Below, in pieces: positions 11,740-63,015 of a stretch of 64,000 nt of DNA (position 1 is the stretch's first letter; the number at the start of each line of letters is the position of its first letter). The stretch spans positions 5,310,270 to 5,374,269 of the forward strand of contig OZ020265.1 in the NCBI GenBank assembly GCA_963971285.1. The letters are read 5' to 3'. The notes below the pieces were generated by a model. It saw only the letters and a program-made list of their open reading frames with translations, was not told the DNA's origin and made no database searches. The translations under genes were made by a program, and so were the position numbers. Source of the stretch: Astropecten irregularis (lineage: Eukaryota > Echinodermata > Asteroidea > Paxillosida > Astropectinidae).

Positions 11740-12970
11740 AAATTAAATACGACTATTGTTGCCGGAAATGTTGACAGTGTACATTCTGCATTATGAAATT
11801 TTCATTTTAAAACCAGCCAACAAATTGTGAAGACACATTGAGATAGCTATGGAAGTCGTCAAATCAAAGAGAAAATTAAACAGCTGTTATTGTGCATGAC
11901 ATTTTAATAATTATATTGCTACTTTTACAGTAGTGGTTTTGATGACGTTGTTTTAATGTTATCATAAATTTTGGATTATTACATTTGTTTGCAATGGATG
12001 AGAGCCAACAAACATAGAAAAACGTATTCAAGTTATTATGTAATGCAAAAGGCCTATTCCTTAGTCAAAAACCATTTCGCATTTTTAATTAGAAGTCATA
12101 CATACACCGTAATTATGTATTATCCAATTATGTGTAATGTGTAATTACATGTGTAATAAAACAATTTCACGAAATAGCATCAGTTCAACATATTGTTTCA
12201 GATATACGTGGTCATATCTGAGTATACTACAATACCTGTAGGACATAACTCACGATATAAAGCAGACAGAGAAGTGATATTAGAAATTTAGACAGTCACT
12301 CTTGCAAAGTAGTCTCTATTCCAATGAAATCATGGAGTGCAGTCTTTAGTGGATAAATCTAGGCAGAACGGTTGGTTACTCCCGCTAGCGATTTGTTTTC
12401 CCGCGAGGGAGTTTTGATATATTGAAAATGTAGTCTCATTCAAGGTGATGCAGTTCATGGTAGGCGACAGGATTGTAAATCACACGACCAGTAGCATCTC
12501 CTCTATCAGCCTATAGTTTATTCAATGTAAGAAACAAACATTTGGTTCAATCAGCTTTCGCAAGAATAATGAAAAACTGTCTGCTGCAGGGGCGTTTCAG
12601 GGGAGGGGGTGGGGGGTCTGCAAAGCGAGATTTTGCCACAGAAAAAAAAATAGAAAAAGTTAAAAATGCAATTGGAAACAAAACTTGCTTGAAAATACTA
12701 TACCTTCCTTCAGCTATCACTTGAAAAACCGGCCATGTACGTTTAGGTGTTTTCTTTTCCGACCTATTCTTTAAAATACATACAAGACACAAATGACCCT
12801 TGTAGACCCTAAAAGAAAATGAAGGTTTGTTTCTAGAAGTACGCCTGTTCTGCCAAAACCATGAATTGCTTGTTTTTATGTGTGCAATTGTTATTCTATG
12901 TGTGGTCATTGTGGATGTTTGAATATTTTTTCCTAGCAAACACATAAAAACAATTAATATGTACAGCTTA
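11740..12970. other. Non-coding; contains a copy of the stalk-intron repeat
   Basis: 12180-12480 repeats intron sequence of the stalk units ('gcagacagagaagtgatatt', 'cagtcactcttgcaaagtag', 'gatttgttttcccgc'), seen again near 15470, 15950 and 16120. The terminal exon and stop of the EGF-SEA gene should lie somewhere below 12972, but I could not identify them. Confidence 0.5.
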
Positions 12971-12971
12971 C

Positions 12972-13052
12972 CATTGGGTTCTGCTCATGGAGTGCTGCCT
13001 CCATCCCTGAAGCCAAATAAGGGCGCATGAATGAATGCCCGCCTGGCAAATC
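12972..13052 (-). CDS. Cytoplasmic-tail exon
   Basis: 81 bases, phase 0-0, between acceptor TTTACAG and donor GTAAGC. Encodes [20 protein letters not shown] and LHEQNPM. It follows the transmembrane exon in matching phase. No known motif; identified by clean splice sites and an open frame only. Confidence 0.65.
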
Positions 13053-16000
13053 CTGTAAATGAATTCACACATAATAAAGCCTTTAAATCGTGGCTATTCT
13101 AGATATATATATAATTTAGTATGGCTAAAAGATGCAGTGAGGATGTTTAAAATATTGTAAAACTTTGTATCGGATTGCTCAAAGTGATAATGAAGTAAAT
13201 CGGTGTCTAACCTGCTGCAGGTATGGTGAACGGCTTACAGGCCTCATCATACGATTCAGGCGTCCTTCTTCATCCTTGTATTCGTTGGTACGGTGTAGGC
13301 CTATACCACCTCTGTACATGCTGTGATGGTCATCTTTTGGATCACCGGGATACACATCGCGGCCGCTATGGTATTTGCGTCGTAGTATCAGACAGGTACA
13401 GAAAACTAAGCCCACTAGCGCCACTACGAAGACAATAGACCCGATGGTGATAAGGACTGCAGTCAAAGCATCTGGACAACAACAGATCATAATACAATCT
13501 ATTAAGCACTTAAGAAGGAAATATTCAAAAATCGAACTTACACAAGATAAGCCGTAACATGTCTATGACTAGCCATATAAATAGAGTATATTCACGGACA
13601 CAAACTTACAGAAAACTAGAGTTCATGATTGTTAGAAACAGCGCATAAGGCTTTTCCGCATATGGTATTTTAAATGATATTATAGATATGCCATACAAAG
13701 AAAGGGATCAATCAATGGGACAAATGAAAAAATAAATCATGATCCTAGCTCTAACCACTTTCTAATGAGGAGCTACTTCCTGTTTGACCGGAAGTAGAGG
13801 TCACAGAGGTCAAGCAATGTGTCACAAAAAAGACCTTGCCAAACATTGATATTTGGTGAAAGAATCATGATCCTAGCTCTTACCACTTTTAAATGAGGAG
13901 CTACATCCTGCTTGACCGGAAGTAGAGGTCACAGAGGTCAAGCAATGTGTCACAAAGAAAGACCTTGCCAAACATTGATATTTGGTGAAAGAATCAGGAT
14001 CCTAGCTCTTAACACTTTTAAATGAGGAGCTACATCCTGTTTGACCGGAAGTAGAGGTCACAGCGGTCAAGCAATGTGTCACAAAAAAAAACCTTGCCAA
14101 ACATTGATATTTGGTGAAAGAATCATGATCCTAGCTCTTACCACTTTTAAATGAGGAACTACATCCTGTTTGACCGGAAGTATAGGTCACAGAGGTCAAG
14201 CAATGTGTCACAAAGAAAGACCTTGCCTAACGTTGATATTTGGTGAAGGAATCATGATCCTAGCTCATACCACTTTTAAATGATGAGCTTTTTAATGAAA
14301 AGCAAAGGCTTTGCGCTTGCGCGAAAAAGCAAAAAAGCAAAAAAAAAACACGATTTTCGCTTCCGCGAAAAAGCCCAAAACAGAAAAAAAAGGGCTTTTC
14401 GCTTCCGCGAAAAAGCCCCCAAAAAAATCACACGATCACATTAATTTAGTAAATATCTGCAGTGGGGCTGCTTGTAAAATGGCTGAAATGGCATTAATAA
14501 ACGAGTCAATAATTATAAACTATGTAAAAGTGCAATATGTCTCTGATTCATTTCAAATATTCATTTCATTTGAATGCGCTGGGTTGAACAGGGATCTCTT
14601 ACGGTTGGATTAGGAAGAACGTTTATGTTCATTCTCCGAGTTCTAGTGAGATTAAGAATTGAAATTTTTGACAATTGTTACCTTCTTTATCTGGCGTTTC
14701 AGTAGATGTACTTGATGGTTCTGCAACGAACATAAAAATGAACGGCAAATAAGAATAACAGCTATGTATGGGGGAAGTACTCAAATATTGTAGGTCTCCG
14801 ACGACACCATGTAGTCTCCAAGGTAGAAGTAGAGTTTTCAAGGTGTCACGGTGACCGTAAACTGCGATAGACATGGTATTAATACTAGAAATGCTGATTA
14901 ATTAAATGTAGTTTCCTCCAGACCGAATAGTAAATGTTCTTATAGATAACGGTCTAATAAATATGCAAGTGCTAATGTTGGGAATAATATTCCGTCATAG
15001 ATCACAATTCTCCTTCCTTTGACAATTGTCAACATTTATATAAAAACTTTATTTTAAATAGTTGATTTCTTCGTTTATCGTTTTTGCTCCGTTTAAGTGT
15101 TCTTGTATAATTTGTTTATACAGGACATCGATGTAAACAGCTTAGGCTGATCGTTATTTTATGCTGAATAACGAAATCCTTGATAATAATTTAAATGAAC
15201 ATAACTATTTTAACTGACAATTGTAGATACAGAACGTGTATTAATGCCTATAGCAATCCATTTAACACATACAGTTTGGAGAAAGAATTGCTGGATCAAT
15301 GATTGAAATTTGAGACTCCTTTACCTTCTGTACTCGGCATTCCGGTGGATATGCCAGAAATTCCTGTAACAGAAAGGCAGACATAGATTCAGTTACCGGT
15401 ACGGGCCTACACTTTCATGTTAAAATTATGTTTTATTACAATACCAGTAGGACACCACTTGCCATATAAAGCGGACAGAGAAGTGATATTACAAATAAGA
15501 CAGTCACTCTTGCAAAGTAGTCTATGTTCCAATGAAATAATGGAGTTCAGCCTTTTGTGGATAAATCTAGAAAGAACGATTGGTTTCTAGACGTTTGCAA
15601 ATGATATTTTGCAAACGTGCGATTTGTTTTCCCGCCTGGGGGTTTTGATGTTTTGAAATAGTATTCTCATTCCAGGTAATGAAGTTCAAGGTAGGCGATC
15701 GATACAGGATGTTTATGTTTTATAAAGGCCTATAGAAATCCATTTTACACATACAGTTCGGAGAAAGAATTGCTGGATCAACGATTGAAATTTGAGACTC
15801 CTTTACCTTCTCTACTCGGCATTCCGGTGGATATGCCAGAAATTCCTGTAACAGAAAGGCAGACATAGATTTAGTAACCGGTACGGGCCTACACTTTCAT
15901 GTTAAAATTATGTTTTATTACAAAACCATTAGAACACCACTTGCTATATAAAGCGTATAGAGAAGTGATATTACAAATTAGACAGTCACTCTTGCAAAGT

Positions 16001-19000
16001 AGTCTATATTCCAGTGAAAACATGGAGTTCAGCCTTTAGTGGATACATCTAGAAAGAACGATTGGTTTCTAGACGTTTGCAAATGATATGGTGGGAAAAC
16101 GTACGATTTGTTTTCCCGCCAGGGGTTTTGATATATTGAAATTGTATTCTCTTTCAAGGTGACCTAGTTCAAGGTAGACGATCAATACAGGATGTTTTTA
16201 AAGGCCTATAACAATCCATTTAACACATATAATTTTGAGAAAGGATTGCTGGATCAACGATTGAAATATACAACTCGTTTACCTTCTGTACTCGGCTTTC
16301 CAGTGGATATGTCAGAAACTCCTGTAACAGAGATGTAAACATAAAGATTCAGAAACCGGTACACGTTGATGTTAAAATTATGTGTTTTTGTTTAATTCGT
16401 AAAAATTCATCCCTGGTAGGCATTATATGTGGATATCTCATGTTTTGACACTGCTTTACCTTACAATGGGTCCTTTGATTTGTTCATGGGAGATTTTTAC
16501 AGTGATACAACACACCATTGATTAAAGGTAGTATCATACTTTGGTACCATACCGAAACAGACATTTTCACAGATATACCTATAACTTATAGGGTATAAAT
16601 ATGGTGATGGTAGAAACATAACGTTCAAATTGTTGCTGCCTGAAATGTTGCATTTATCCAGAAAATGGTAAAACCAGTGACCCAAAAAGATCAACGATAA
16701 AAGAGAAAAGACTTAGAAATACTGTGCCCGTTTTTTAATGTTTTCTCAAAAAGTGTGCCCGTATGGGACAAAAAATTCCACAGATTGCTGCAATTGTATC
16801 TTCCTTGTTATTTGTAGCCAATAAATCTGTTTTTTTTTTCTTTGACAAAAACCAAAGTACGATATTATCTTTGAAAACAATCAAAAGAAAGTAATACAAA
16901 TAATGCATCTATGCCCGGTTTTCTTCAATTAATATCTGATTATAACACACATTCCGTGCAAATTTCGGAATCACAAAAATCGGATAAAAATGTCTTACCT
17001 CTGACTATGATAGATTGAACAGGTATAGCAGTACCATCAACATTCAATGCATTATCACTGAAAGCTTGCTGAACAGCAGCATTTGATGGTATGTCTTGAC
17101 TGTCAGCGTATGATGCTACAAAAGTTGCAATAACACTCCCCCTTGAAAATTCCACGACCTTTACCGCCAGTACGGGGCTAAGTAATTTAAGTATATTCTT
17201 ATTCTGCAGAAATGAGAAAATGCAGTTATGTTCAAGTCTGTTAGATAAGAATGAGTATCAATAGAGCGACCAATTCTAAACCGCCTTTAATGCAAATAAA
17301 TGTTCTTTAGTCATAAGGGTAGGCCCACTGGCGTAGACAGGGGGGGGGGGTGGGGGGCGGCAGGGGGCAGGGGGCAGGGCCCCCCTCCCTATTCCGCCCC
17401 CAAGACAACACCAACGTGTCTTAATGCTTGCGCACGTATTCAGTAGGCCTAGTGCATCCAATGCGCAGGCCTGGTCAAGCCAGCATTGGCTAAAATGTAC
17501 ATGTTGCCCCCCCCCCCCCCCCCATTAAAAAATCCTGGCTACGCAACTGGGTAGGCAATGTAAATTTTATCAACAGAGTATTGAAGTGTAGCCCCATTTT
17601 CATTTGGATAAATTGAAAAAATTGCCATAAAAAACATTACCAGATTTTCCAGTACAGCAGCCATTTTTTTAAACGCTTCGGTGGTAGGATTGCTGTAAGC
17701 CCCGTGGAAGTTCAATGAAGGCATGGTCATAGATACTGTTAAAGATGGACGAACTAAATTTGGAGGTAAAGAAAAATAACACAAGAGTTTTGAATGTGTT
17801 ACAGATCATGGATGAGATTCCAATGACATTTGAATCAACATTCTAAGTTGATGTAAGACTTTGAGTAATGTAATACTTGCAGGAACACGCAATGATATTT
17901 ACATGTGCAAGAGCTGTCTCTATTCTTAAAGAACCCATCTCTGACGCGACATTCACATGTATATCCTGCAGTACTTGTGATTGGTTGACAGTCCTCTGTA
18001 TCGGAGCAGGGGCTGATGGTGGATAAACAAGGGTTGTTCCCTGAATGCAAAAATAAAGAAAAGTATAAATGGATATACAAAAAAATATATACAACATTAT
18101 TCCCCGACGAAACTAAATATTGTAAGAAGTTAAATACTGACCAAAATCACAGTCTGTATCTATGGACGAATATTGCGCATTTCTTGTATCAGAAACAAAG
18201 TGTATGCCTATTGTTGTTTTTGTTGTTGTTAAGATAATGATAATAAAGCCTGGAATTTTAATGGAGGCTTGTTAAAAAGAAAGAAAGATAAAATTTTTAT
18301 AAATATTACCTGAACAGTCGGGCCACGAACGAGTCAATGGACAAACACACTCACAAGCCGCTGCATCAAATTGCTGGAAATTTACACAGCTAGAAGATGA
18401 CAATGAACATGCTGTAAAAAAAACAATGTGTGAATTGTTCTATTAATCACAAAAACCAAAATAAGTTATAATTTCCGTAAATAAAGCAGGGCGTTCCCTG
18501 TCAATATTTTCGGTAAGAATCTCAGTAACATGTTGCCCAGGTAGGGCAACGCACCTGCGCAACATGACTTTGGGCCATGTGTACACAAGCAACATTTGGC
18601 TAACATGTTATCGAGATGTTGATGAGATGTTAGTTGTAATATCTTGCATTGTAACTTCCTATTTGGTTTTGCTCTGTAATTGGCATATCTCTGTCATGGG
18701 TTGTCTAATAAGAATATAAATGAACGGACTATTCAAATGGAATTATGAGAGCACATCATGCGGATTATTGTGAAATTAACCACTTGTCAGCAAGCGTTCG
18801 GGATCAGATATTTTGGGGTAATATACTTTAATAAGCATTCACCTGTTTCACATTTGGCCCCTGTGTAACCAGCATCACAGTTAGTACATGTGAAGACCAA
18901 ACCATCCTTTACACATTTTCCTCCATTCAAACAAGGGCTGGGATTACAAATATCAGCTGTCAAGAGAATCAGAAAGAAACACATATGGCCTCGACACAGA

Positions 19001-58000: not shown

Positions 58001-61000
58001 AAAATCGTGCTTGGATCAACAATTTACATAAATTGCTAAAACAAAGCCTGTGGTTAACAGGATAAACGCAATAACGCATATTTTGTTCGTTCCTCTCCAT
58101 GTTGAATACAAATGCCCACCGCCATGTGGCTGCAACTGGTAGTGTGGGAGTGTATTTATGTAATTCGTTACGTGCGAGAGTATGGGGTTTTGTTGTACAC
58201 ACAAAAACAAATCTACCTTGAAAATACCAATGTTATTAAACCAACCTTACTTGACCATTGGTTTTCAGAAACCACCGCTACGCATTCTAAGCCCAATATA
58301 GAGCAAATTGGACAGCTTAAAGCTAGATATTCTTCTCAATAAGTTAAGCACAAATCTTAATGTAAGTGATAACTTGTCATAATTTAAACATTACCTACAA
58401 TACGGCCACTTCCCTTAAACTTTTGAATAAAGAATACTTTGTTTGATGATTTTTATTTTTACAATTGCAATTCAAATTGAACTGAAGCCAATCACCTTCA
58501 AAAAAAAAAGAAAACGAAAACAGTTATCAACCTTTTTTCCCGTAGGTTTTGATAAGTATTCACCTGTTGCACAGTTAAAATATGCCCATCCAGGAGGACA
58601 ATCACAGCGGTACATTGTAGCATCCGATGACAATACTGTACAAGATCCTTCGTTTATACAGGGGTTGGAAGTACATACATCTGTGAAGAGAATCAGAAAC
58701 AGAAAATCGTAAGTTTTTTTTTTCCTTCTTGTGGGGGGGGGGGGGGGGCCAAAAAAATTGAAAGCAAAAAACTTTGTTTGGTTAACCAATAACTTTAATA
58801 TTAGCATACCTGGTATAATGACCAAATATTGAGCAAAGTGCGCATGCATCACGGCTGTGTGTCGCATCAACTGTCGACATCAACATCAATAAAGGTTGGT
58901 GCTGAGCGTGAAGCAACGCCCCGCGCGGTATGTTGAAGGCTACAGAAAGCATTAAATCACGGCCGTCACGCTGCAAATCGCGGTAAGGTATAACGTTGCT
59001 GCAATACGTGTTAACAGTTGCAATCGCCAACTAAACTTACAGGTACAATACATGGTTAGTAAAGGTCTCAGAACAGCACTCAAACTTTGTCTGATCCAGC
59101 CTGATAATAAGCCTTCGAAAATCTGAAAATCTCAAGCGGACATCTGAGTTATTGAAAAATAGCGAATGGTTTTGATCCCACCATGACATCGAAACCATTT
59201 CCCAACTCTGTTTTACTTAATTCTAGATAAATTCACCTTTAAATGCGGAAACAATGTTACCGGTATGTATGCACCAGCACCGTTTTGATAGCCCTTAATG
59301 GTTACACGTAAATCCTGTGAACATTTCTTTTGTTTACCATGTGGGGGTACACTCTGCTTCATATGACAGTTTGGAAGTCATGGAGCCATTTCATGTGTTA
59401 ACGAACATTCGCTGCTGGTTGGCATGGGCCGCTAAAGATTGCTACTCATTTGGTCTTTTCGAAAGACGGCGTGACAAAATGCATATTTTTTTTGCAAATC
59501 ATCACTGATTGTTTTATTTCTGATGGATTCAGCAATAACTGTCCATGTTTATGAAACGTGTTCAAATTGTGGTTATTATTTTATGCTAGGCGTTGATGGC
59601 TCTCCATAATAATTATATAGTTTCTGCCATCTTGGTTGGCAAAAAACGCGGTCTGTGACTTTGAAGAAATGTTTATATCGATCATTACAAACAGTTTCTA
59701 CTGCGAAAGTCGCATCGTACAATATATACAGGAGTTGACCAATCAGGGACATCACCAAGGGCAACAACGCGCGCGTGATAAAACTTCTTCGCCACGCGCG
59801 CCCTGTTGTTGCTGTATTCGTATACTGTATTGTGCACATAATATACTGTGCGCGTATTAACATGTCTGTGTCTTCTAGCCACACACGGTGGCACGACCAA
59901 AGCTAGCTAGGGGTTCGTATTCACGGCCAGGAAGATCTAATGCCGTCAAACCAAGCGGCTTTTATGCCAAATAAAATGATATCTCACTACCAACAGACAG
60001 ACAAATTGCTGGCAAAGTTGTCCATGGATACTTCATGGTAAATACTAACTAATTCATCGTGTAATAACACACGACCCTGATAGACATCCCTTCTTCGTGA
60101 ATGGTATAGTCCAACAGCGCTCAGCATGTCCAGCGGATCCCGGCAAAAAGATTAATGAAAGGAGGAATTTGTTTGGTCTAGGGTACGGGGGTTTAGTTTC
60201 TTCAATACTTTTAAATGACCAATCAAAATGAAGCTTATGAAATACTGCATATCATGGTTGATGAGCATTTTACGCTAGGCAATGGGATGTGTGCCAAAAG
60301 CCTTCATGTATATTACACAACACAACACAACGGCGATCAACATCAGACACGCGTTGCCAAACGAATACGGAAATACGCAGTATTCCCGGGAGACAAAGGC
60401 TGATGTCTACCTCCTACCTCTTGCTTTATGGTACGAGGTACGGGTTATTAGTAGCTCATTTAGCAAAAATCACCCGATATATCATTAAATTGTTCTATCT
60501 TCCTCTAGAAATTGGATGTGCATTATGTTTAAAGTTCCTCAAAACCGTCACAAGGCCGTAGCAATTTTGGGGTGTGTGAAATCACTATGGGGAAGTTTTT
60601 GAACGTGGTTTGTGTGTACTAAACGGTGTACGCGCTGTCTATGGAAGATGCGACTCATGTGTTTGTAATGTATCGTTTTGATGTACCCACTCCATGAGAC
60701 TTTGGGGATAATTACCACAAGTAAAATCAACCCTCAAAATGTAATCGTTCCCGAACCGGCCGTATTTAGACCGTCATTACGCGTCAGTTTAGACTGACGG
60801 TATACATACGCTCCAAAAGGCCCAATAGAGCTACCTACATGTACATAGCCTAAAATGAACAAAATAGTATTATTCCCTTAAGCACAGACTACCCAGGCTG
60901 TGATAGAATTATTATTACACTATAAAGTTGAGGACCCATTTTTTTTTTTTATAATTCAAAAAGGATTTATTATGACTTTTTTTTTTTTATTCAAATTCAC

Positions 61001-63015
61001 TTCACAAAAGGTCAATTCAACACACTGAGCAGCGGTTTGTATCGGATTTGCGACAAATAATACAAGACCATCAGCCCCCAACACGCAGATTCAGAATTCT
61101 CCCGAAGACGGCGGGAGCATACTGACCAGACCGACGAGTTAACCGGCTCTTTTTAGAGCCGCCCCGTACACACAAAATACATAAATAATTATATAGCATT
61201 ATGTTGTTGATGTATATTCACCTGTTTGACATGTTTCGCCCTCGTAACCCCGATGACAGTTACAGCTGAAGCCACCACCTATGACTACACAATTTCCTCC
61301 AATCCCACAAGGGTTACTGGAACAATCACCTGTGACAATAAAAACATACAATAAAGATATAATGAAATAGAAATCAGTCAATTGAGTCAGACAGTAGAAT
61401 TAATGTTCTTCATTCCCACGATATTCTGCCTTTTTCCTGATCCTCTTCCGTGTATACTAAACTTCAACAGCGTTTTCTTTTGTCATACTTTATTGTGTGT
61501 ACTCACCTCTGTTACATGTTGACCCTGTATAACCTGCAACACATTCGCAGGAGTAGCTCCACGAGTCTAGTACTGTACAAGTTCCTCCATTCAAACAAGG
61601 GTTACCATTACTAGTACAATCAGCTGTCAAAAGAATTATAAAGAATATTACGCCTATGTCTGTGGAAAACAAACATAATGTAATATAGAAGAACGAACTT
61701 TATTTTCTTAATTTTTTTTTAAGACTTGGATTATAAATTTAAATAAATTGTAATCTGTCACCCGATGACGTATGATGACGTTAATGTTCGGTTTACATCG
61801 ACACTATAGGGACTTTTTATGGACCGTTAACATCGGTTGTTTAAAATTGACCAAAGAAGACAAGAAGAAAAAGAGGGGATGAAATAAAAGGAACAGAAAG
61901 GCTTTTCGCTCACGCAAAAAAAGCCATAAAAATCTTTTCGCTGAAGCTTAAGAGTAAATAAGGGACTGAAAGTCTTTTTATAGGTAAAATTTTGCAATGT
62001 TCAAGGTCGGGTTTCTACTACACAATTCACATCATGTCAAATTGATTTTGTTAAAGGATGTGGCTAGGTTGATCCTTAAAGCTTTACATTTAATGTGTAC
62101 AAATTATAACTGGGTTATTTTTCAAAGTGCGAAAAAATACATAACTTATAACCCATATGGTAGTGCTCTAATTTTCACAAATACCACATATTATTGAGAT
62201 ATTTGTTTTGTAGAAAAAAAAATAACCTGGAAGAAAATTATTCCTCCTTCACAAGATCGCTGGATATTTAACCATTTCTTTTTTCACAAATTACCTCGAG
62301 GCTGTCCTTGAGTTATATGAGAAGAAAATAGATATTCAATTTGGTTTTTGTTTTTTATGAGGAAGAAGAAAAAACAAAGGCTTTCCTCTTCCGCGAAAAA
62401 GCCAAAAATATAGGCTGTTGATGACTTTTGATTGATTAAAATTCCATCTATATCCTCTTCGTGTGACCCCCATGTACCGTTTCTCTAATTGCAGCAAAGC
62501 TTAAGCTGTGCATGTGTATTTCAAATGCATACATGTATGTGATTGGTTTCATGACTTCTTACTGTCAAACGAACAAAGGGTAACGACTATTACAAGGAAG
62601 ACCATCAACATAGGACTGGATATTTCAGTCAGTAAATGCGCCGGTACGGTATTCTGGAGGTCGCTGGTTCAAATCCCGCTCCAGTAACTTTATCTGTGAC
62701 CACGTTTCAATGACTTAAAATAAAGTTAGTTTCCCATGCAATATATTTTTTGCACGACCCCCATAAATCTAAAATCAACAATAATTTATCTTGGTGATTT
62801 TTGTTTTGAAATTCAATTTCCGTTTTAGTTGACTGGAGCTCAAGTCCTTTAGAAAATCAAGCAATTGTTTTCCTCATACATTTTTTATGTGTATTTACCT
62901 TGTTCACAGTTTTGAAATGCGTAACCAGGAGTACAATGACAGATGTACATAGTAATATCCGAGGGATCAACTGCACACCTTGCTCCATTCATACAAGGGT
63001 TGGAAGTACAAATAT
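12972..63015 (-). CDS. Large EGF-repeat / SEA-domain single-pass membrane protein gene (partial)
   Basis: One multi-exon gene read right to left. Domain order is 37 EGF-like exons, a SEA domain, a Ser/Thr-rich stalk of four mini-exons, a transmembrane helix and a short cytoplasmic tail. Every EGF exon begins after an AG in phase 1 and ends at a GT in phase 1, so exons can be added, lost or skipped without shifting frame. Each carries Notch-type spacing D-x-C-x3-5-P-C-x-N-G-G-x-C...C-x-C-x2-G-Y-x-G-x2-C. The 5' end (signal peptide and further domains) lies beyond the right edge, and the last exon was not found. Known EGF-SEA-TM proteins are cell-surface adhesion or mucin-like molecules; no orthologue is claimed. 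I assume one transcription unit because phases match throughout and no start or stop exon was seen between. Two genes remain possible. Confidence 0.8.
13212..13471 (-). CDS. Transmembrane + juxtamembrane cytoplasmic exon
   Basis: 260 bases, phase 1 to 0. After the splice the product reads [29 protein letters not shown], a single transmembrane helix. A stop-transfer RRK follows, then a polar tail with two tyrosines in acidic or basic context ([19 protein letters not shown]). The CTC at the inner membrane face could be palmitoylated (inference). Acceptor TGTTGTTGTCCAG, donor GTTAGA. Confidence 0.85.
13736..14290. repeat. ~128 bp tandem repeat, 4.3 copies
   Basis: Units start 'atcatgatcctagctct' near 13736, 13863, 13992, 14120 and 14250 and contain 'tttgaccggaagtagaggt' and 'caagcaatgtgtcacaaa'. 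Copies differ by only a few bases. Older relatives lie at 19440-19760. Confidence 0.9.
14295..14420. repeat. Cluster of TTTTCGC/GCGAAAA short hairpins
   Basis: Three adjacent copies of a short near-palindrome built on TTTTCGCTTCCGCGAAAA. Related hairpins stand alone at about 61900-61925 and 62379-62403. Confidence 0.65.
14682..14720 (-). CDS. Stalk mini-exon 4 (39 bp)
   Basis: Phase 1-1 mini-exon encoding [13 protein letters not shown], between acceptor CGTTGCAG and donor GTAAC. The Ser/Thr/Pro-rich product suggests an O-glycosylated spacer just outside the membrane. Same length and phases as the three upstream mini-exons. Confidence 0.65.
14721..15324. other. Intron between stalk exons, nothing recognised
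   Basis: AT-rich intron. Its right end (from about 15250) begins the tandem stalk unit. Confidence 0.4.
15325..15363 (-). CDS. Stalk mini-exon 3 (39 bp)
   Basis: Phase 1-1 exon encoding [13 protein letters not shown]; acceptor CTGTTACAG, donor GTAAAGG. Nearly identical to the next copy at 15807. Confidence 0.7.
15807..15845 (-). CDS. Stalk mini-exon 2 (39 bp)
   Basis: Encodes [13 protein letters not shown]; identical splice signals to mini-exon 3. The single Thr-to-Arg change shows recent duplication. Confidence 0.7.
16283..16321 (-). CDS. Stalk mini-exon 1 (39 bp)
   Basis: Encodes [13 protein letters not shown] between CTGTTACAG and GTAAAC. It joins the end of the SEA exon (AGA G) in phase 1, giving Arg-Gly across the junction. 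Confidence 0.7.
16322..16998. other. Intron, nothing recognised
   Basis: No repeat copy or coding signal seen apart from short A/T runs. Confidence 0.4.
16999..17203 (-). CDS. SEA domain, second exon
   Basis: 205 bases, phase 0 to 1. Begins [19 protein letters not shown], then [17 protein letters not shown], and ends [15 protein letters not shown]. The G-S-V-I within the central strand matches the SEA autoproteolysis site (G^S-V-V-V type), so the mature protein is probably a non-covalent heterodimer cut between this Gly and Ser. This is inferred from the family. Acceptor CATTTCTGCAG, donor GTAAGA. Confidence 0.85.
17326..17549. mobile_element. hAT-like MITE (224 bp)
   Basis: Inverted ends CACTGGCGTAGACAGG and, reversed, CAGTTGCGTAGCCAGG enclose G-runs and C-runs. 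The flanks ggtaggcc (17318-17325) and ggtaggca (17550-17557) match at 7 of 8 bases, as expected for an 8 bp hAT target duplication. It lies in the intron that splits the SEA domain. Confidence 0.65.
17641..17735 (-). CDS. SEA domain, first exon
   Basis: 95 bases, phase 1 to 0. Encodes [20 protein letters not shown] then [12 protein letters not shown], the first strand and helix of a SEA domain. Acceptor ATCTTTAACAG, donor GTAATG. Continues in frame into the exon at 17203. Confidence 0.82.
17903..18040 (-). CDS. EGF-like exon directly before SEA
   Basis: 138 bases, phase 1-1, six cysteines with spacing unlike the array: [28 protein letters not shown], ending RDSSCT. A divergent EGF just ahead of a SEA domain is common in mucin-like membrane proteins. 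Donor GTAAAT, acceptor TGCATTCAG. Confidence 0.78.
18310..18411 (-). CDS. Short cysteine-rich EGF-like exon
   Basis: 102 bases, phase 1-1, encoding [16 protein letters not shown] then [18 protein letters not shown]. Six cysteines, but no NGG motif and a compressed first half, so it is a degenerate or specialised EGF. Splice sites are intact (acceptor TTTTTACAG, donor GTAATA). Confidence 0.7.
18843..18956 (-). CDS. EGF-like exon [15 protein letters not shown]
   Basis: 114 bases. The second half reads [17 protein letters not shown]; an Asn is inserted between C4 and C5 (C-T-N-C instead of C-x-C), which is unusual for the array. Confidence 0.88.
19147..19263 (-). CDS. EGF-like exon [15 protein letters not shown]
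   Basis: 117 bases. CMNGGTC fits the O-fucose consensus C2-x4-S/T-C3. The C5-C6 loop reads [10 protein letters not shown], lacking the usual Gly before Tyr. Confidence 0.9.
19440..19760. repeat. Diverged copies of the 128 bp repeat
   Basis: About 2.5 older units ('gtttgaccagaaattggcgt', 'caagcaatgtatcacaaaga', 'cattcggcaaaagaatcatg') matching the array at 13736-14290 some 5 kb away. Confidence 0.75.
19761..22159. other. Long intron, no coding signal
   Basis: 2.4 kb without EGF exons, relics or recognisable transposons. The part near 20.4-20.9 kb is less AT-rich, but no family was recognised. Confidence 0.45.
22160..22273 (-). CDS. EGF-like exon [15 protein letters not shown]
   Basis: 114 bases, the first class A exon on the left of the array. 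Ends [12 protein letters not shown], with Asp in place of the usual Gly before Tyr. Confidence 0.92.
22868..23836 (-). pseudogene. LINE RT C-terminal part with FADD box and C2H2 finger
   Basis: Just after the in-frame TAA at 23837-23839 the frame reads [13 protein letters not shown], the catalytic Asp-Asp box. It continues through [19 protein letters not shown] and [19 protein letters not shown] to a C2H2 finger [19 protein letters not shown] at the end. The stop separates it from the upstream RT motifs. Confidence 0.85.
23837..24300 (-). pseudogene. LINE RT middle part
   Basis: Contains [20 protein letters not shown], then a '[11 protein letters not shown]' block where active RTs normally carry F-x-D-x-x-K-A-F-D, and [19 protein letters not shown]. 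The first catalytic Asp region therefore appears mutated. A frameshift near 24300 separates it from the preceding piece. Confidence 0.8.
24300..25224 (-). pseudogene. LINE linker and RT N-terminal part
   Basis: In frame after the TAG at 25225-25227. Includes a helical linker, [19 protein letters not shown] and [20 protein letters not shown], the fingers and palm entry motifs of a LINE RT. Confidence 0.82.
25225..25992 (-). pseudogene. LINE APE-type endonuclease
   Basis: Reads [47 protein letters not shown] and [12 protein letters not shown]: the Asn, Glu, metal-site and Asp-His blocks of an APE-like nuclease. GNLNAR replaces the usual G-D-F-N-A-R, so a catalytic Asp is lost. The frame is open further upstream to about 26.1 kb. 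Ends at a TAG. Confidence 0.85.
27178..27294 (-). CDS. EGF-like exon [15 protein letters not shown]
   Basis: 117 bases; second half [14 protein letters not shown]. It directly follows the upstream end of the LINE. Its downstream intron flank matches that of the exon at 22160, so these two were neighbours before the LINE inserted. Confidence 0.92.
27722..27838 (-). CDS. EGF-like exon, T type ([15 protein letters not shown])
   Basis: 117 bases. Ends GTNCKT with donor CGG^GTGAAT; the Lys replaces the Glu found in sister copies at 29767 and 35504. Confidence 0.92.
28137..28259 (-). CDS. EGF-like exon, N type ([14 protein letters not shown])
   Basis: 123 bases. Two extra residues between C1 and C2 (EANPNL) mark this subtype, shared with 30143 and 35876. 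[14 protein letters not shown] fits the EOGT O-GlcNAc consensus. Confidence 0.92.
28590..28990. repeat. G-rich intron block, copy 1
   Basis: Starts 'gggcatagatcaccgggga' and runs through a long G-rich stretch to 'caactaccaattcatttt', 'cgtatatggaagtacga' and 'gtggcatttaaggtaagt'. Nearly identical copies at 30590 and 41335. Confidence 0.88.
29072..29188 (-). CDS. EGF-like exon, D type ([17 protein letters not shown])
   Basis: 117 bases. Near-identical sisters at 31063, 41821 and 45993. Reads [18 protein letters not shown] in the second half. Confidence 0.93.
29767..29883 (-). CDS. EGF-like exon, T type ([15 protein letters not shown])
   Basis: 117 bases. CMNGGTC gives an O-fucose consensus that its sister at 27722 (NGGAC) lacks. 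The next intron holds an extra duplicated 'cagatttcaaaaggataaa' module. Confidence 0.92.
30143..30265 (-). CDS. EGF-like exon, N type ([14 protein letters not shown])
   Basis: 123 bases; differs from 28137 by Glu to Asp and Ser to Thr. The donor is intact here, unlike the copy at 35876. Confidence 0.92.
30590..31010. repeat. G-rich intron block, copy 2
   Basis: Same order of landmarks as copy 1, with a 13-base G run near 30640. It lacks about 20 bases ('aggacttgtctaca' region) found in copies 1 and 3. Confidence 0.88.
31063..31179 (-). CDS. EGF-like exon, D type
   Basis: 117 bases. Differs from 29072 by an Asn in LNVTT (a new N-x-T glycosylation sequon) and GYKGTDC in the last loop. Acceptor has tgtgaataga instead of tgtgaagaga. 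Confidence 0.92.
31561..31683 (-). CDS. EGF-like exon, X type ([17 protein letters not shown])
   Basis: 123 bases with a run of six Thr codons before GYTC. The sister at 35006 is the other half of the tandem duplication and differs at only two residues (Thr/Ile, Glu/Gly). Confidence 0.93.
32212..33141 (+). pseudogene. LINE1 APE endonuclease (left copy)
   Basis: Reads [41 protein letters not shown] and SQHRPSLIT: the Asn, Glu, Asp-x-Asn and His blocks of an APE-like nuclease, all present. A one-base insertion near 33087 relative to the right copy throws the frame off after HQGSKE. The nuclease is intact but its link to the RT is not. Confidence 0.85.
33485..33891 (+). pseudogene. LINE1 RT, N-terminal fragment (left copy)
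   Basis: Contains [38 protein letters not shown] and [20 protein letters not shown], the first RT motifs. It stops at the LINE2 junction, before the catalytic Asp residues. Confidence 0.85.
33892..34720 (-). mobile_element. LINE2 3' fragment (left copy)
   Basis: Opposite-strand RT C-terminal region with [17 protein letters not shown] (Ala-to-Ser next to the catalytic Asp pair compared with the right copy) and [18 protein letters not shown]. Cut at 34720 by the duplication breakpoint. Confidence 0.87.
35006..35128 (-). CDS. EGF-like exon, X type (right duplicate)
   Basis: 123 bases; Thr run followed by [17 protein letters not shown]. The last Cys is followed by Gly rather than Glu, as at 42705. 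Confidence 0.92.
35504..35620 (-). CDS. EGF-like exon, T type ([14 protein letters not shown])
   Basis: 117 bases; NGG changed to TGG. CMTGGTC keeps the O-fucose consensus. Its counterpart in the left duplicate is deleted. Confidence 0.9.
35876..35998 (-). pseudogene. EGF-like exon, N type, with destroyed splice donor
   Basis: The 123-base coding part is intact ([36 protein letters not shown]), but the donor reads ACAG^ATGAAT instead of ACAG^GTGAAT (plus-strand 'at' at 35874-35875). The exon is probably skipped. Because it is phase 1-1, skipping costs one EGF and no frameshift. A one-base sequencing error would be the alternative. Confidence 0.8.
36419..37560 (+). pseudogene. LINE1 endonuclease region (right copy)
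   Basis: Same protein as 32212-33141, but about 30 bases near 36575 are deleted, removing the Q-E-T-H catalytic block. [14 protein letters not shown] is retained. The frame runs on through [19 protein letters not shown] and ends at a frameshift before the RT. Confidence 0.85.
37667..38073 (+). pseudogene. LINE1 RT, N-terminal part (right copy)
   Basis: RT fingers motifs as in the left copy ([33 protein letters not shown]). Broken at LTNDIE by the LINE2 insertion; the frame resumes at 39883. Confidence 0.88.
38074..39872 (-). mobile_element. LINE2, 5'-truncated, nested in LINE1
   Basis: A 1.8 kb insertion flanked by the 10-base duplication acgacatcga (38064-38073 and 39873-39882). Its 3' end is at the left. 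It starts within the region before the RT, so it is a typical 5'-truncated retrotransposition. The clade is distinct from LINE1 and from the LINE at 22.8 kb. Confidence 0.92.
38083..39872 (-). pseudogene. LINE2 reverse transcriptase
   Basis: Right to left: [70 protein letters not shown] (first catalytic Asp), [15 protein letters not shown] frameshift near 38960 follows, then [17 protein letters not shown] (Asp-Asp box) and [17 protein letters not shown]. All RT catalytic residues survive, but the frame is broken once. Confidence 0.88.
39883..41224 (+). pseudogene. LINE1 RT palm, thumb and C-terminus
   Basis: Resumes with [44 protein letters not shown] and [15 protein letters not shown] frameshift near 40895 follows, then a cysteine-rich tail with [20 protein letters not shown] and [10 protein letters not shown], typical of jockey-like LINE C-termini. 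Stop at 41222-41224. Confidence 0.88.
41335..41760. repeat. G-rich intron block, copy 3
   Basis: Same block as at 28590 and 30590, directly after the LINE1 target duplication. LINE1 therefore landed between an N-type exon and its G block. Confidence 0.88.
41821..41937 (-). CDS. EGF-like exon, D type
   Basis: 117 bases; [18 protein letters not shown]. Identical in protein to the exon at 45993, showing recent exchange between the two ends of a 4 kb stretch. Confidence 0.93.
42705..42827 (-). CDS. EGF-like exon [17 protein letters not shown]
   Basis: 123 bases. NEG replaces NGG, and a longer C3-C4 loop reads [11 protein letters not shown]. Acceptor ATCCTTTACAG. Ends NCGT. Confidence 0.9.
43374..43490 (-). 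CDS. EGF-like exon [17 protein letters not shown]
   Basis: 117 bases. Starts Ala-Pro-Cys with an acidic first loop, like the exon at 44027, and ends [14 protein letters not shown]. Donor GTGATT. Confidence 0.9.
44027..44146 (-). CDS. EGF-like exon [14 protein letters not shown]
   Basis: 120 bases. The last loop is [13 protein letters not shown], without the G-Y-x-G motif. Donor AA^GTAAAT. Flanking introns match 44677 and the relic at 45842. Confidence 0.88.
44677..44796 (-). CDS. EGF-like exon [14 protein letters not shown]
   Basis: 120 bases. NPC is changed to ISC and NGG to YGG. The C5-C6 loop [11 protein letters not shown] is one residue longer than usual. CLYGGTC keeps the O-fucose consensus. 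Confidence 0.88.
45320..45352 (-). pseudogene. Tiny EGF exon remnant
   Basis: Only the last ~30 bases of an EGF exon ('ctatttcacagttgatccctg') survive, fused to intron words 'gcagtttcaaagtgc'. A recombination scar. Confidence 0.55.
45486..45556 (-). pseudogene. Truncated EGF exon (3' half)
   Basis: Encodes [18 protein letters not shown] then TNCGT with an intact donor, but the first half including C1-C3 and the acceptor is replaced by 'attattattcagtttg'. Confidence 0.8.
45842..45940 (-). pseudogene. Truncated EGF exon fused to another unit
   Basis: A copy of the exon at 44677 that breaks off at 'ccgtacaaac'. It runs straight into 'gtatcctccataacgtatta', the flank of the exon at 45993. Lost acceptor and first loop; a clear unequal-recombination junction. 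Confidence 0.8.
45993..46109 (-). CDS. EGF-like exon, D type (rightmost class A)
   Basis: 117 bases, [18 protein letters not shown]. It marks the boundary between class A exons (left) and the class B/C array (right). Confidence 0.93.
46110..46825. other. Intron with a duplicated segment
   Basis: 46540-46760 ('tgataacttgtcatact', 'acggccactaccgacata', 'tctagaaaatacttgatt') matches 50290-50490 and, more distantly, 58270-58430. These are introns downstream of class B exons on the minus strand. Confidence 0.7.
46826..46945 (-). CDS. EGF-like exon, class B ([15 protein letters not shown])
   Basis: 120 bases; acceptor CAATTCGCAG. The class signature D-T-T-M-Y-S-C follows C3. CLHGGTC fits the O-fucose consensus. 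Confidence 0.9.
47895..48956 (+). pseudogene. Gypsy-like Gag with interrupted zinc knuckle
   Basis: From the Met at [17 protein letters not shown] the frame carries a retrotransposon Gag core ([36 protein letters not shown]). A CCHC-type region follows, with first knuckle [10 protein letters not shown]. The second knuckle has Arg at a cysteine position, and a TGA at 48579-48581 interrupts the frame. The same frame continues to 48956 with an Arg/Ser-rich basic tail. The frame is also open upstream to 47712. I describe the breaks only. Confidence 0.85.
48953..49042 (+). pseudogene. Residual pol C-terminus
   Basis: A 29-codon frame ending [11 protein letters not shown], then stop. Similar R-S-G-R-x-x-R/K-P endings close many Gypsy Pol proteins. 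Protease, RT, RNase H and integrase are absent between gag and this tail, pointing to a large internal deletion. Confidence 0.6.
49725..49844 (-). CDS. EGF-like exon, class C ([16 protein letters not shown])
   Basis: 120 bases. NGG is changed to GRG. Ends [12 protein letters not shown]. It sits directly left of nothing coding; the LTR element inserted about 110 bases away in its downstream intron. Confidence 0.9.
50531..50661. mobile_element. Harbinger-like palindromic MITE (131 bp)
   Basis: Almost entirely palindromic: GGGCCTGTTTGTTTC at the left and its complement at the right, with repeated ggatccggatccc inside. The 3-base flanks are tga on both sides. A GGGCC start with a 3 bp duplication fits PIF/Harbinger elements. 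Confidence 0.75.
50726..50842 (-). CDS. EGF-like exon, class B ([14 protein letters not shown])
   Basis: 117 bases; [18 protein letters not shown]. The donor is CG^GTAATA. O-fucose consensus present; the O-glucose consensus is lost (C-S-Q instead of C-x-S). Confidence 0.9.
50843..52939. other. Long intron; one short tandem repeat
   Basis: No EGF relic. 51940-52010 is a ~33 base tandem repeat of 'ttttgaagttttaaagtttt'. 52370-52430 ('cgaatttatagagcgcag...agggcgctta') resembles a dispersed repeat common in invertebrates, but no family name can be supported. Confidence 0.5.
51935..52015. repeat. ~33 bp AT-rich tandem repeat
   Basis: About 2.5 units of 'gaagttttaaagttttaaa' plus 'agctttt'. Confidence 0.8.
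52940..53053 (-). CDS. EGF-like exon, class C ([14 protein letters not shown])
   Basis: 114 bases. The last loop [12 protein letters not shown] replaces G-Y-x-G by G-I-R-G. Donor CG^GTGAGT. Confidence 0.88.
53202..53321 (-). CDS. EGF-like exon, class C ([16 protein letters not shown])
   Basis: 120 bases; [16 protein letters not shown]. The neighbouring intron carries the foldback element at 53455-54101. Confidence 0.9.
53455..54101. mobile_element. Foldback element with terminal inverted repeats
   Basis: Ends CAATAGACCGATCCAGTA and, reversed, CAATAGACCGATCCATTA, about 28 bases with three or so mismatches. The interior has two inverted or duplicated modules around 'gggtttacacttc' and 'gcgcatgcgtg'. 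No clear target duplication; if the element starts at GACCGATCC it would be flanked by TA. No transposase. Confidence 0.7.
54310..54420. repeat. Short foldback rich in gactcgagtc
   Basis: 'gcccgactcgagttac' and 'caactcgagtcaatg' pair in inverted orientation, as do 'ggctcgacctgagcc' and 'gattcgacttgagcc' more loosely. Possibly a MITE core. Confidence 0.45.
55027..55143 (-). CDS. EGF-like exon, class B ([17 protein letters not shown])
   Basis: 117 bases; [14 protein letters not shown] style ending ([10 protein letters not shown]). Sister of 56224, from which it differs at several residues including loss of the Ser needed for O-glucose. Confidence 0.92.
55519..55638 (-). CDS. EGF-like exon, F type ([16 protein letters not shown])
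   Basis: 120 bases; [19 protein letters not shown] then ATCET. Acceptor CTCTTTGCAG. Intact partner of the MITE-split exon at 56436. Confidence 0.92.
55777..55896 (-). CDS. EGF-like exon, class C ([16 protein letters not shown])
   Basis: 120 bases; [16 protein letters not shown]. Sister of 57039. Confidence 0.92.
56224..56340 (-). CDS. EGF-like exon, class B ([17 protein letters not shown])
   Basis: 117 bases; [20 protein letters not shown]. Carries both the O-glucose (C-T-S-N-P-C) and O-fucose (C-M-N-G-G-T-C) consensus sequences of Notch EGFs. Confidence 0.92.
56436..56897 (-). pseudogene. EGF exon, F type, split by a MITE
   Basis: The two halves (56436-56534 and 56876-56897) match the exon at 55519. 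The donor side is lost (T-run instead of the cacctg junction), the second cysteine codon reads TGG (Trp), and a 341-base element sits inside the coding sequence. Cannot be spliced or fold. Confidence 0.85.
56535..56875. mobile_element. Harbinger-like MITE (341 bp) inside an EGF exon
   Basis: Ends GGCCATACAAAAATTGTTGT and, reversed, GGCCATACAAAAAATGTTGT. Flanked by the duplication tta (56532-56534, 56876-56878), the PIF/Harbinger target pattern. The empty site is preserved in the sister exon ('gggttagtattctc' near 55617). Confidence 0.9.
57039..57155 (-). CDS. EGF-like exon, class C ([15 protein letters not shown])
   Basis: 117 bases; [19 protein letters not shown] then TTCET. One codon shorter than its sister at 55777. 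Confidence 0.92.
57575..57625 (-). pseudogene. EGF exon relic with frameshift
   Basis: Acceptor-like TTTTTCACAG then NCTSKW and a stop. Resembles the start of the exon at 61507, with one extra A shifting the frame before the N-P-C. The rest of the exon is gone. Confidence 0.7.
57775..57894 (-). CDS. EGF-like exon, class C ([16 protein letters not shown])
   Basis: 120 bases; [16 protein letters not shown]. Trp after C2 is unusual. O-fucose consensus present. Confidence 0.9.
58564..58680 (-). CDS. EGF-like exon, class B ([14 protein letters not shown])
   Basis: 117 bases; [20 protein letters not shown]. Both O-glucose (C-T-S-N-P-C) and O-fucose (C-I-N-E-G-S-C) consensus sequences are present. 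Trp replaces Tyr in the last loop. Confidence 0.92.
58681..61221. other. Long intron without EGF relics
   Basis: A G-run at 58733-58748 and a purine/pyrimidine-poor middle. No transposon recognised. 60755-60795 forms a small hairpin (cgtcagt-ttag-actgacg). A histone-like stem-loop is listed separately at 61145. Confidence 0.45.
61145..61160 (+). other. Histone 3' stem-loop-like hairpin
   Basis: GGCTCTTTTTAGAGCC forms a perfect 6 bp stem with a TTTT loop, within the consensus of metazoan replication-dependent histone mRNA 3' ends (stem GGCTCT/AGAGCC, loop TTTC usual). No histone coding sequence was recognised upstream. Confidence 0.35.
61222..61329 (-). CDS. EGF-like exon [14 protein letters not shown]
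   Basis: 108 bases, the shortest intact array exon; [23 protein letters not shown] fits the O-glucose consensus. NGG is replaced by IGG. Confidence 0.9.
61507..61623 (-). CDS. EGF-like exon, class C ([16 protein letters not shown])
   Basis: 117 bases; [16 protein letters not shown]. Only 177 bases of intron separate it from the next exon at 61329, the shortest intron in the array. Confidence 0.92.
61624..62898. other. Intron with two TTTTCGC-type hairpins and a SINE fragment
   Basis: Hairpins at 61900-61925 and 62379-62403 match the cluster at 14295. No EGF relic seen. Confidence 0.5.
62630..62692 (+). repeat. tRNA-derived SINE fragment
   Basis: Ends 'ggtcgctggttcaaatcccg', a Pol III B-box with a nearly pairing T-stem, preceded by 'atttcagtcagtaaatgc', similar to the D-arm side of the fragment at 7430. 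Confidence 0.4.
62899..63015 (-). CDS. EGF-like exon, class B ([14 protein letters not shown])
   Basis: 117 bases, the most upstream exon visible; [22 protein letters not shown]-x-C is changed to NGARC. C-T-S-N-P-C keeps the O-glucose consensus. Donor AAG^GTAAAT, acceptor TTCACAG; the initial Asp is inferred from the class. Confidence 0.9.

Follow-up and report, generated by a model that had tools for sequence, protein, structure and literature searches.

The 64,000-nt stretch of the Astropecten irregularis genome analysed here (the window; C30:5310270-5374269, C30 being contig OZ020265.1) carries a predicted gene that is a member of a family in which the membrane anchor is constant, and the neighbour of this gene on the same contig is a putative coding satellite with an estimated 186 exons. 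On balance, it is probable from the predicted architecture that the family encodes SEA-cleaved, membrane-mucin-like surface receptors, whose length would evolve via unequal exchange of exon units. Relatives were searched for in a single assembly of 475.7 Mb in 168 contigs, and no paper on this EGF-SEA-TM family was among those listed by literature searches.

Structure of the window gene

Joining 46 exons of the minus strand, from 63015 to 12436, after their splice sites had been re-read, yields one open frame of 1,755 residues, which has no internal stop and ends in a single stop codon at 12438-12436. Acceptors are AG in all 46 exons of the model and donors are GT in 44 of the 45 non-terminal exons, the sole exception being exon 22 (35998-35876, minus strand), with the donor AT. 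This exon is probably skipped in splicing and, since it is open and symmetric, its skipping would leave the frame undamaged. From 63015 down to 17903, the minus strand of the window holds 37 exons of EGF type, as many as the earlier note had counted, and 35 of them match Pfam EGF (PF00008) at E<=0.001 when each exon is taken singly. Exon 36, a six-cysteine module, matches no Pfam family, and exon 37, with six cysteines in an EGF-like order, matches no EGF family in Pfam. These exons are followed in the same frame by a Pfam SEA domain encoded by two exons, four stalk exons of 39 nt, a transmembrane (TM) exon and the tail, which agrees with an array ending in SEA, stalk and TM and, given SEA, TM and tail in the predicted protein, with the cell-surface type that had been proposed.

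The exons and related features are listed below in window coordinates, with (-) for the minus strand; EGF exons given without further remark are in phase 1-1, match Pfam EGF and lie in the joined frame.

62899-63015 (-): EGF exon 1; phase 1-1; Pfam EGF, AG/GT splice sites, joined frame
61507-61623 (-): EGF exon 2
61222-61329 (-): EGF exon 3
58564-58680 (-): EGF exon 4
57775-57894 (-): EGF exon 5
57039-57155 (-): EGF exon 6; phase 1-1; duplicate of exon 8 (self-comparison, Pfam EGF, joined frame)
56435-56524 (-): dead EGF exon relic without splice sites; profile match
56224-56340 (-): EGF exon 7; phase 1-1; duplicate of exon 10 (self-comparison, Pfam EGF, joined frame)
55777-55896 (-): EGF exon 8
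55519-55638 (-): EGF exon 9
55027-55143 (-): EGF exon 10
53202-53321 (-): EGF exon 11
52940-53053 (-): EGF exon 12
50726-50842 (-): EGF exon 13
49725-49844 (-): EGF exon 14
46826-46945 (-): EGF exon 15
45993-46109 (-): EGF exon 16 (type a); phase 1-1; identical to exon 21
45843-45938 (-): dead EGF exon relic, 5' part missing; profile match
45487-45555 (-): dead EGF exon relic, 5' half missing; profile match
44677-44796 (-): EGF exon 17
44027-44146 (-): EGF exon 18
43374-43490 (-): EGF exon 19
42705-42827 (-): EGF exon 20
41821-41937 (-): EGF exon 21 (type a)
35876-35998 (-): EGF exon 22 (type b); open, donor AT instead of GT
35504-35620 (-): EGF exon 23 (type c)
35006-35128 (-): EGF exon 24 (type d)
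31561-31683 (-): EGF exon 25 (type d); phase 1-1; differs at 2/123 sites from exon 24, of which it is the youngest duplicate
31063-31179 (-): EGF exon 26 (type a)
30143-30265 (-): EGF exon 27 (type b)
29767-29883 (-): EGF exon 28 (type c)
29072-29188 (-): EGF exon 29 (type a)
28127-28249 (-): EGF exon 30 (type b)
27722-27838 (-): EGF exon 31 (type c)
27178-27294 (-): EGF exon 32
22160-22273 (-): EGF exon 33
19147-19263 (-): EGF exon 34
18843-18956 (-): EGF exon 35; phase 1-1; counterpart in the C30 relative; Pfam EGF
18310-18411 (-): exon 36, six-cysteine module; phase 1-1; conserved in the C30 and C16 relatives
17903-18040 (-): exon 37, divergent EGF-like module; phase 1-1; conserved in the C30 and C16 relatives
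17641-17753 (-): SEA exon 1; phase 1-0; Pfam SEA
16999-17203 (-): SEA exon 2 with the GSVIA motif; phase 0-1; Pfam SEA
16283-16321 (-): stalk mini-exon 1 (13 residues); phase 1-1; joined frame
15807-15845 (-): stalk mini-exon 2; phase 1-1; joined frame
15325-15363 (-): stalk mini-exon 3; phase 1-1; self-comparison, joined frame
14682-14720 (-): stalk mini-exon 4; phase 1-1; joined frame
13212-13471 (-): TM and proximal tail exon; phase 1-0; TM/tail match, joined frame
12972-13052 (-): tail exon; phase 0-0; 26/26 residues compared identical in the C30 relative
12436-12510 (-): last coding exon with the stop codon; joined frame
31275-34721 (no strand): youngest duplicate block, one copy; EGF exon 25 and retroelement, without b and c exons
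34720-38902 (no strand): youngest duplicate block, other copy; EGF exons 24, 23, 22 and retroelement

The earlier note had described a gene built entirely of phase 1-1 exons, which holds for all 37 EGF-type exons and all four stalk exons and fails for the SEA exons (1-0 and 0-1), the TM exon (1-0) and the tail exons (0-0). EGF modules in symmetric 1-1 exons are a known rule, and the phase pattern alone is thus expected rather than surprising. Both ends that had been assigned to the gene have to be moved: the last coding exon reaches 12436 instead of stopping at 12972, and the array, instead of starting at 63015, continues upstream of the window with EGF exons at window-relative positions 66268-66152 and ~68795-68679. 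The window gene therefore has at least 39 EGF-type exons and, measured from the most upstream of those found, extends over ~56 kb to its stop codon. No signal-peptide exon or gene start was found upstream of 68.8 kb; a scan for phase-1 signal-like exons, with GTRAG donors only, gave two chance-like candidates at 62611 and 33175, and comparison with the 4.8 kb upstream of the array of the C30 relative gave mainly a shared dispersed repeat and otherwise short matches at chance level.

Exons 1-34 together with the two upstream ones served to build a local EGF profile, so these 36 match it by construction. A scan of 154 kb with this profile yielded 44 matches on the minus strand and 3 on the plus strand; 40 of the former are strong, 38 in the window (three relics included) and two upstream. 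As 36 of these 40 are the profile's own sequences, the informative results are the other four, namely exon 35 and the relics near 56524, 45938 and 45555, and the plus-strand control, where no match in the 154 kb was strong and the best of the three had E 0.013.

Gain and loss of EGF exons in the window

Self-comparison of the window finds introns copied along with EGF exons. Three exon types, a, b and c, recur in sets (exons 21-22-23, 26-27-28 and 29-30-31) within blocks of roughly 87-95% identity. The youngest block, 31275-34721 compared with 34720-35233 and 35993-38902, is 98.3-98.8% identical, with 34 differences at 3,423 aligned sites (~1%, gaps not counted), which are distributed as 2/123 in the exon and 4/391 and 28/2,909 in non-exon sequence. 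Between its two matching parts, the copy at 34720-38902 carries b and c exons that the copy at 31275-34721 is without, and this presence in one copy only points to recent gain and loss of EGF exons; judging from the a-b-c order elsewhere, the loss would have taken place in the copy at 31275-34721. The three EGF relics at ~56.5, 45.9 and 45.5 kb, none of which is a complete exon, together with the one broken donor, also point to losses of EGF exons. The co-duplicated introns, the ~1% block with its copy lacking two exons, the relics and the broken donor thus bear out the earlier proposal of an array that wins and loses EGFs by entire 1-1 exons. The stalk mini-exons have been duplicated in the same manner, the unit at 15239-15884 being 88.6% identical to that at 15721-16362.

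Excerpts of published work report sea-star heterozygosities of 0.32%, 0.96% and 5.16%. The ~1% divergence of the youngest block falls within these reported values, and polymorphism is thus plausible, as far as those excerpts go; the duplicate could also be an assembly artefact in which two haplotypes were wrongly placed in tandem. Pieces of non-LTR-like retroelements (endonuclease, reverse transcriptase) lie in introns of the array at 22868-26157, 32176-34138, 36577-38319 and 38927-40900, and one pair of these pieces is ~98% identical.

An exon satellite in the closest relative

The closest relative of the window gene lies on the same contig, on the opposite strand and head to head, its array starting ~203 kb beyond the last upstream EGF exon of the window gene. 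It has counterparts of exons 35, 36 and 37, the SEA domain, one stalk exon, TM and tail, and a different EGF array: at C30:5582284-5654042, near-identical 379-bp units of exon plus intron extend over 72 kb. Tandem Repeats Finder (TRF) run on 55 kb of this array reports a 379-bp unit in 107.7 copies (93% match) and three more copies besides. On its left side the array ends at ~5582284, and no convincing EGF match was found in the 4.8 kb beyond it. A 41-residue EGF query gave at least 150 matches, all listed ones being in this array and 127 of the 150 listed being 100% identical. Array length divided by unit length gives an estimate of 186 EGF exons, ~27 kb of the array (5583801-5611000) being known from matches only. 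Exon+intron units are strictly periodic in this relative and irregular in the window gene.

Among exon starts fitting the search pattern, the splice sites of the array are AG in 108/109 and GT in 109/109 cases. The 106 full units contain no stop in their exons, none is open through its intron, and their lengths fall into all three classes modulo 3 (43, 33 and 30 units); with introns not open and unit lengths in every class, the reading frame of the array rests on splicing. Mean pairwise divergence between units is 1.41% in exons and 6.04% in introns, and the exon variants comprise 10 synonymous changes on 28.7 sites and 8 nonsynonymous changes on 91.3 (p=0.0019). Units resemble each other most at spacings of 22, 55 and 4 units, a pattern to be expected from unequal exchange. 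A quick tree was made of 42 EGF exons (six sampled copies of the C30 relative and 36 window-gene exons, 34 in the window and two upstream); most of its inner branches are weak, and the six copies form one group separate from the 36 (SH-aLRT 94). The second SEA exon of the C30 relative changes reading frame, and its assembled haplotype may thus not make an anchored protein. A similar 129-bp minisatellite is present inside both C30 genes, at window 13735-14289 and at C30:5652487-5653007.

The family in the genome

The TM/tail query has 13 matches in the genome, 12 of which are convincing (two on C30, one on contig C16 and nine on contig C24); the weakest of the 12 has E 0.0175, and the thirteenth, on contig C9 with E 0.07, was not counted. 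The SEA query has 15 matches, on C30, C16 and C24, and each query matches once within the window. Seven of the eight C24 SEA matches cluster at 11.78-11.97 Mb. In the 9.1 kb read at C24:11804001-11813100, a SEA exon with a GSVIV site is followed by a long mucin-like ORF with TADPGA repeats, and a second mucin-like ORF, with TTTPEP repeats, lies nearby. Among the predicted family members, the anchor is kept and the ectodomain differs. Elsewhere, at C11:25594582-25603082, EGF matches are periodic, with three EGFs per ~977 bp, and this region is probably another EGF exon satellite.

SEA domain, stalk and tail

The SEA domain of the window gene matches PF01390 with 28.3 bits, 1.9 bits over the cut-off of 26.4. 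With exons joined by eye and approximate borders, one C24 relative scores 30.3 bits with the same family and the C16 relative scores 26.0 bits, 0.4 below the cut-off. From exon 36 to the C-terminus, a Pfam scan of the window gene found SEA only, with no LNR, no RAM or ankyrin and no Pfam domain in the tail. A profile of four SEA sequences gave four matches in PDB, all weak: the first is ADGRF1 (E 0.11), whose GSIVA lies in register with the GSVIA/GSVVA of the family in this weak match, the second is an unrelated transporter (E 0.18) and the third is a transmembrane protease; MUC1 was not recovered by this profile. With a single SEA sequence as query, no SEA protein was among the PDB matches listed.

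The autoproteolysis-type motif GSVIA sits at the expected place in SEA exon 2 of the window gene. Autoproteolytic SEA domains carry GSxxV according to an excerpt of PMC9478142, and GSVVV and GSIVA are given as autoproteolytic SEA motifs in a part of PMC6954182; SEA-like domains are described as shedding switches in a section of PMC6586460. The second SEA exon was examined at 10 loci, and 9 of them have the G-S pair: the window gene, the C30 relative, the C16 relative and all but one of the seven C24 loci; in the remaining one, L025, it was not found. The tail motif SPYLQ, or SPYME, is present at 11 of the 12 TM loci and was not found in L039, and RPYxAxGME as well as a YNPVAY-like end are common to the window gene and some relatives. 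These tail motifs may serve signalling or trafficking. The stalk of the window gene is short and rich in Ser/Thr/Pro, being encoded by four exons of 13 residues each, and a long Pro/Thr/Ser (PTS) domain is absent from the part of the gene found.

Selection on EGF exons and on the 3' part

Seven young EGF pairs, in which every exon is used once, show 5.3 synonymous and 28.7 nonsynonymous differences, which corresponds to an omega of 1.84; diversifying selection was not detected in these pairs, this omega being not different from neutral (p=0.22), and the three a-b-c pairs alone give 1.13. The 3' part (exons 35-37, SEA exon 1, part of SEA exon 2, TM and tail) has an omega of 0.42 against the C30 relative, and a smaller set (exons 36 and 37, SEA exon 1, TM and tail) has 0.44 against the C16 relative. 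Nonsynonymous to synonymous differences are 29:5 in the EGF pairs compared with 81:54 in the 3' part against the C30 relative (p=0.005).

Some EGF copies are conserved rather than diverse: exons 16 and 21 are identical and their introns differ at 21 of 220 sites (9.5%). Exons 17-20 are more divergent than their introns (107/354 vs 254/1,479 sites), their synonymous sites being raised as well, and exon-exon conversion could be behind this pattern. Between the window gene and the C30 relative, synonymous divergence is 0.27-0.61 in exons 35 to SEA and 0.06-0.18 in the TM and tail exons, and the latter look as if converted between the two genes.

Comparison with known systems

In LPA, the tandem units consist of exon plus intron. 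From the excerpts available on LPA KIV-2, the likeness lies in tandem exon+intron units that code for an extracellular disulphide domain and alter protein length, whereas the units here are of ~380 bp with one exon, reach an estimated 186 copies in the C30 relative and were seen in one assembly. Notch receptors also have a long tandem EGF array, and Notch and Delta head the PDB matches of the EGF profile. Consensus patterns place an O-fucose site in 14, an O-glucose site in 6 and an O-GlcNAc site in 21 of 37 EGF domains (35 in the window and two upstream), counts that fit a Notch-like surface EGF type. A juxtamembrane SEA-like switch is described for Notch in the section of PMC6586460 available, but the window gene has no LNR from exon 36 on, a canonical SEA with GSVIA and a short tail without a Pfam domain.

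Transmembrane mucins with SEA and EGF, such as MUC13, share the SEA domain beside EGF modules, the TM and the tail. In chicken Muc13, as described in an excerpt of PMC1552070, one PTS repeat is encoded per exon, and the resemblance extends, as far as this excerpt goes, to one repeat per exon and a length that recombination or splicing can change. Unlike these mucins, the window gene has no long PTS domain and its repeated unit is an EGF fold; no sequence link to MUC1 was recovered in the PDB search. The sea urchin protein EBR1_5, for which a part of PMC5521101 describes TM, SEA and HYR repeats, is likewise a membrane protein of an echinoderm in which SEA goes together with an evolving ectodomain of repeats, but its repeats are HYR, not EGF, and the likeness is one of described architecture. 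The SEA domain of ADGRF1/GPR110 shares the GSIVA autoproteolysis site in register with GSVIA/GSVVA (the motif as given in the excerpt of PMC6954182), but this protein is a G-protein coupled receptor and the similarity is weak (E 0.11).

Proposed mode of action and alternative explanations

The window gene would make a sea-star type I membrane protein. Its extracellular part would run from a long rod of EGF domains through two cysteine modules, both conserved, and a SEA domain with GSVIA to a short Ser/Thr/Pro stalk, behind which come the TM helix and the conserved tail, and the protein may work like a membrane mucin or a SEA-switched adhesion receptor. The SEA domain would cleave itself, the long ectodomain would remain non-covalently attached until shed by ligand or force, and the conserved tail would signal or traffic. 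With one EGF encoded by one 1-1 exon, units of exon plus intron could be copied, dropped or replaced with the reading frame intact; that units were duplicated and lost can be read from the sequence, and unequal exchange would be the route. The anchor is kept and the array of the ectodomain turns over independently from member to member, as the window gene and the C30 relative show; a C24 relative has mucin-like exons.

The proposal of cleaved receptors has to be weighed against simple structural elongation, in which the EGFs form a passive spacer or a rod of the glycocalyx, comparable to a membrane mucin that lacks PTS, without recognition specificity, and the number of EGFs drifts nearly neutrally. 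This is a distinctly less probable account that nevertheless deserves attention: omega in young EGF duplicates does not differ from 1, the C30 copies are near-identical in protein (the 127 of 150 listed matches at 100%), which fits a rod and not a repertoire, and C24 relatives have mucin-like repeats. However, the constraint on exons in the C30 satellite suggests that EGF sequence matters, as does the identity of exons 16 and 21 despite 9.5% intron divergence, which exon conversion could also produce, and the conserved tail suggests signalling. A fast-evolving recognition receptor (self/non-self, gamete or pathogen) with diversifying selection on its EGF domains is unlikely. The excess of exon over intron differences in exons 17-20, the omega of 1.84 and the turnover of the ectodomain against a constant anchor agree with it, but this omega is not significantly above 1, conversion also explains exons 17-20 given their raised synonymous sites, and the C30 relative is homogenised rather than diversified. 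The self/non-self or pathogen role that the earlier note had floated finds no support in the sequence, and diversifying selection is not significant (omega 1.84, p=0.22).

Several independent short genes, which that note had named as the outcome that would overturn it, or a decaying pseudogene array instead of one transcription unit, would be compatible with the broken donor, the three dead relics, the transposon pieces in introns, the gene start that was not found and the signal-like ATG exon at 62611. A single open frame running through 46 exons with 44/45 donors and 46/46 acceptors intact, and the presence in the window of just a single match each for SEA and TM, make this highly improbable. 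A bolder form of the favoured SEA-cleaved receptor is a length-variable system, with a constant SEA-TM-tail anchor and an EGF rod whose length is set per allele by satellite-like unequal exchange (at least 39 diversified units in the window gene, an estimated 186 homogenised ones in its neighbour), so that rods of different length in different individuals would have consequences for how cells recognise each other or how high the glycocalyx stands; this remains speculative and rather doubtful.

Exon shuffling through symmetric 1-1 exons is well known from textbooks; what is unusual is a family caught in several of its stages: old diversified exons, a ~1% diverged duplication minus two exons, dead relics and a 72-kb exon satellite, the C30 array, in which exons are conserved while introns drift. 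The family makes the growth of extracellular repeat proteins, the splicing of ~200 near-identical exons and polymorphism in EGF number testable. It is also a warning to annotators, since such arrays resemble satellites and may be masked or collapsed.

Other features of the window and genome

Outside the array, the window contains a Fibrinogen_C domain ORF at 123-1238 on the minus strand with a PAN-domain ORF just upstream, representing a fibrinogen-related gene or genes, as well as AGAAAC hexamer arrays and a 111-bp minisatellite at 2349-6884 and 9627-10414. ORFs at 47688-48956 on the plus strand resemble retroelement gag by eye, the first one being without a Pfam match.

For starfish mitochondrial genomes, the part of a review at hand describes an inversion that takes in 16S, ND1, ND2 and a portion of the tRNA cluster. 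The mitochondrial contig has its tRNA cluster inverted in the starfish manner, which speaks for a sea star and against amphioxus as the source; the GFP family PF01353 had no match in this genome or in any control genome, so its absence is uninformative on this point. What is probably a nuclear copy of mitochondrial DNA lies at C25:9951047-9952018, and a COX1 gene without TGA codons at C131:32162-33484, on a contig that is perhaps bacterial. The mitochondrial contig (code 9) carries tRNAs in the order -L -G -Y D -M V -C -W A -L -N Q -P, followed by COX1, R, ND4L, COX2 and K, with ND4L and COX2 recognised by eye from translations; we take its exact tRNA order to be that of asteroids.
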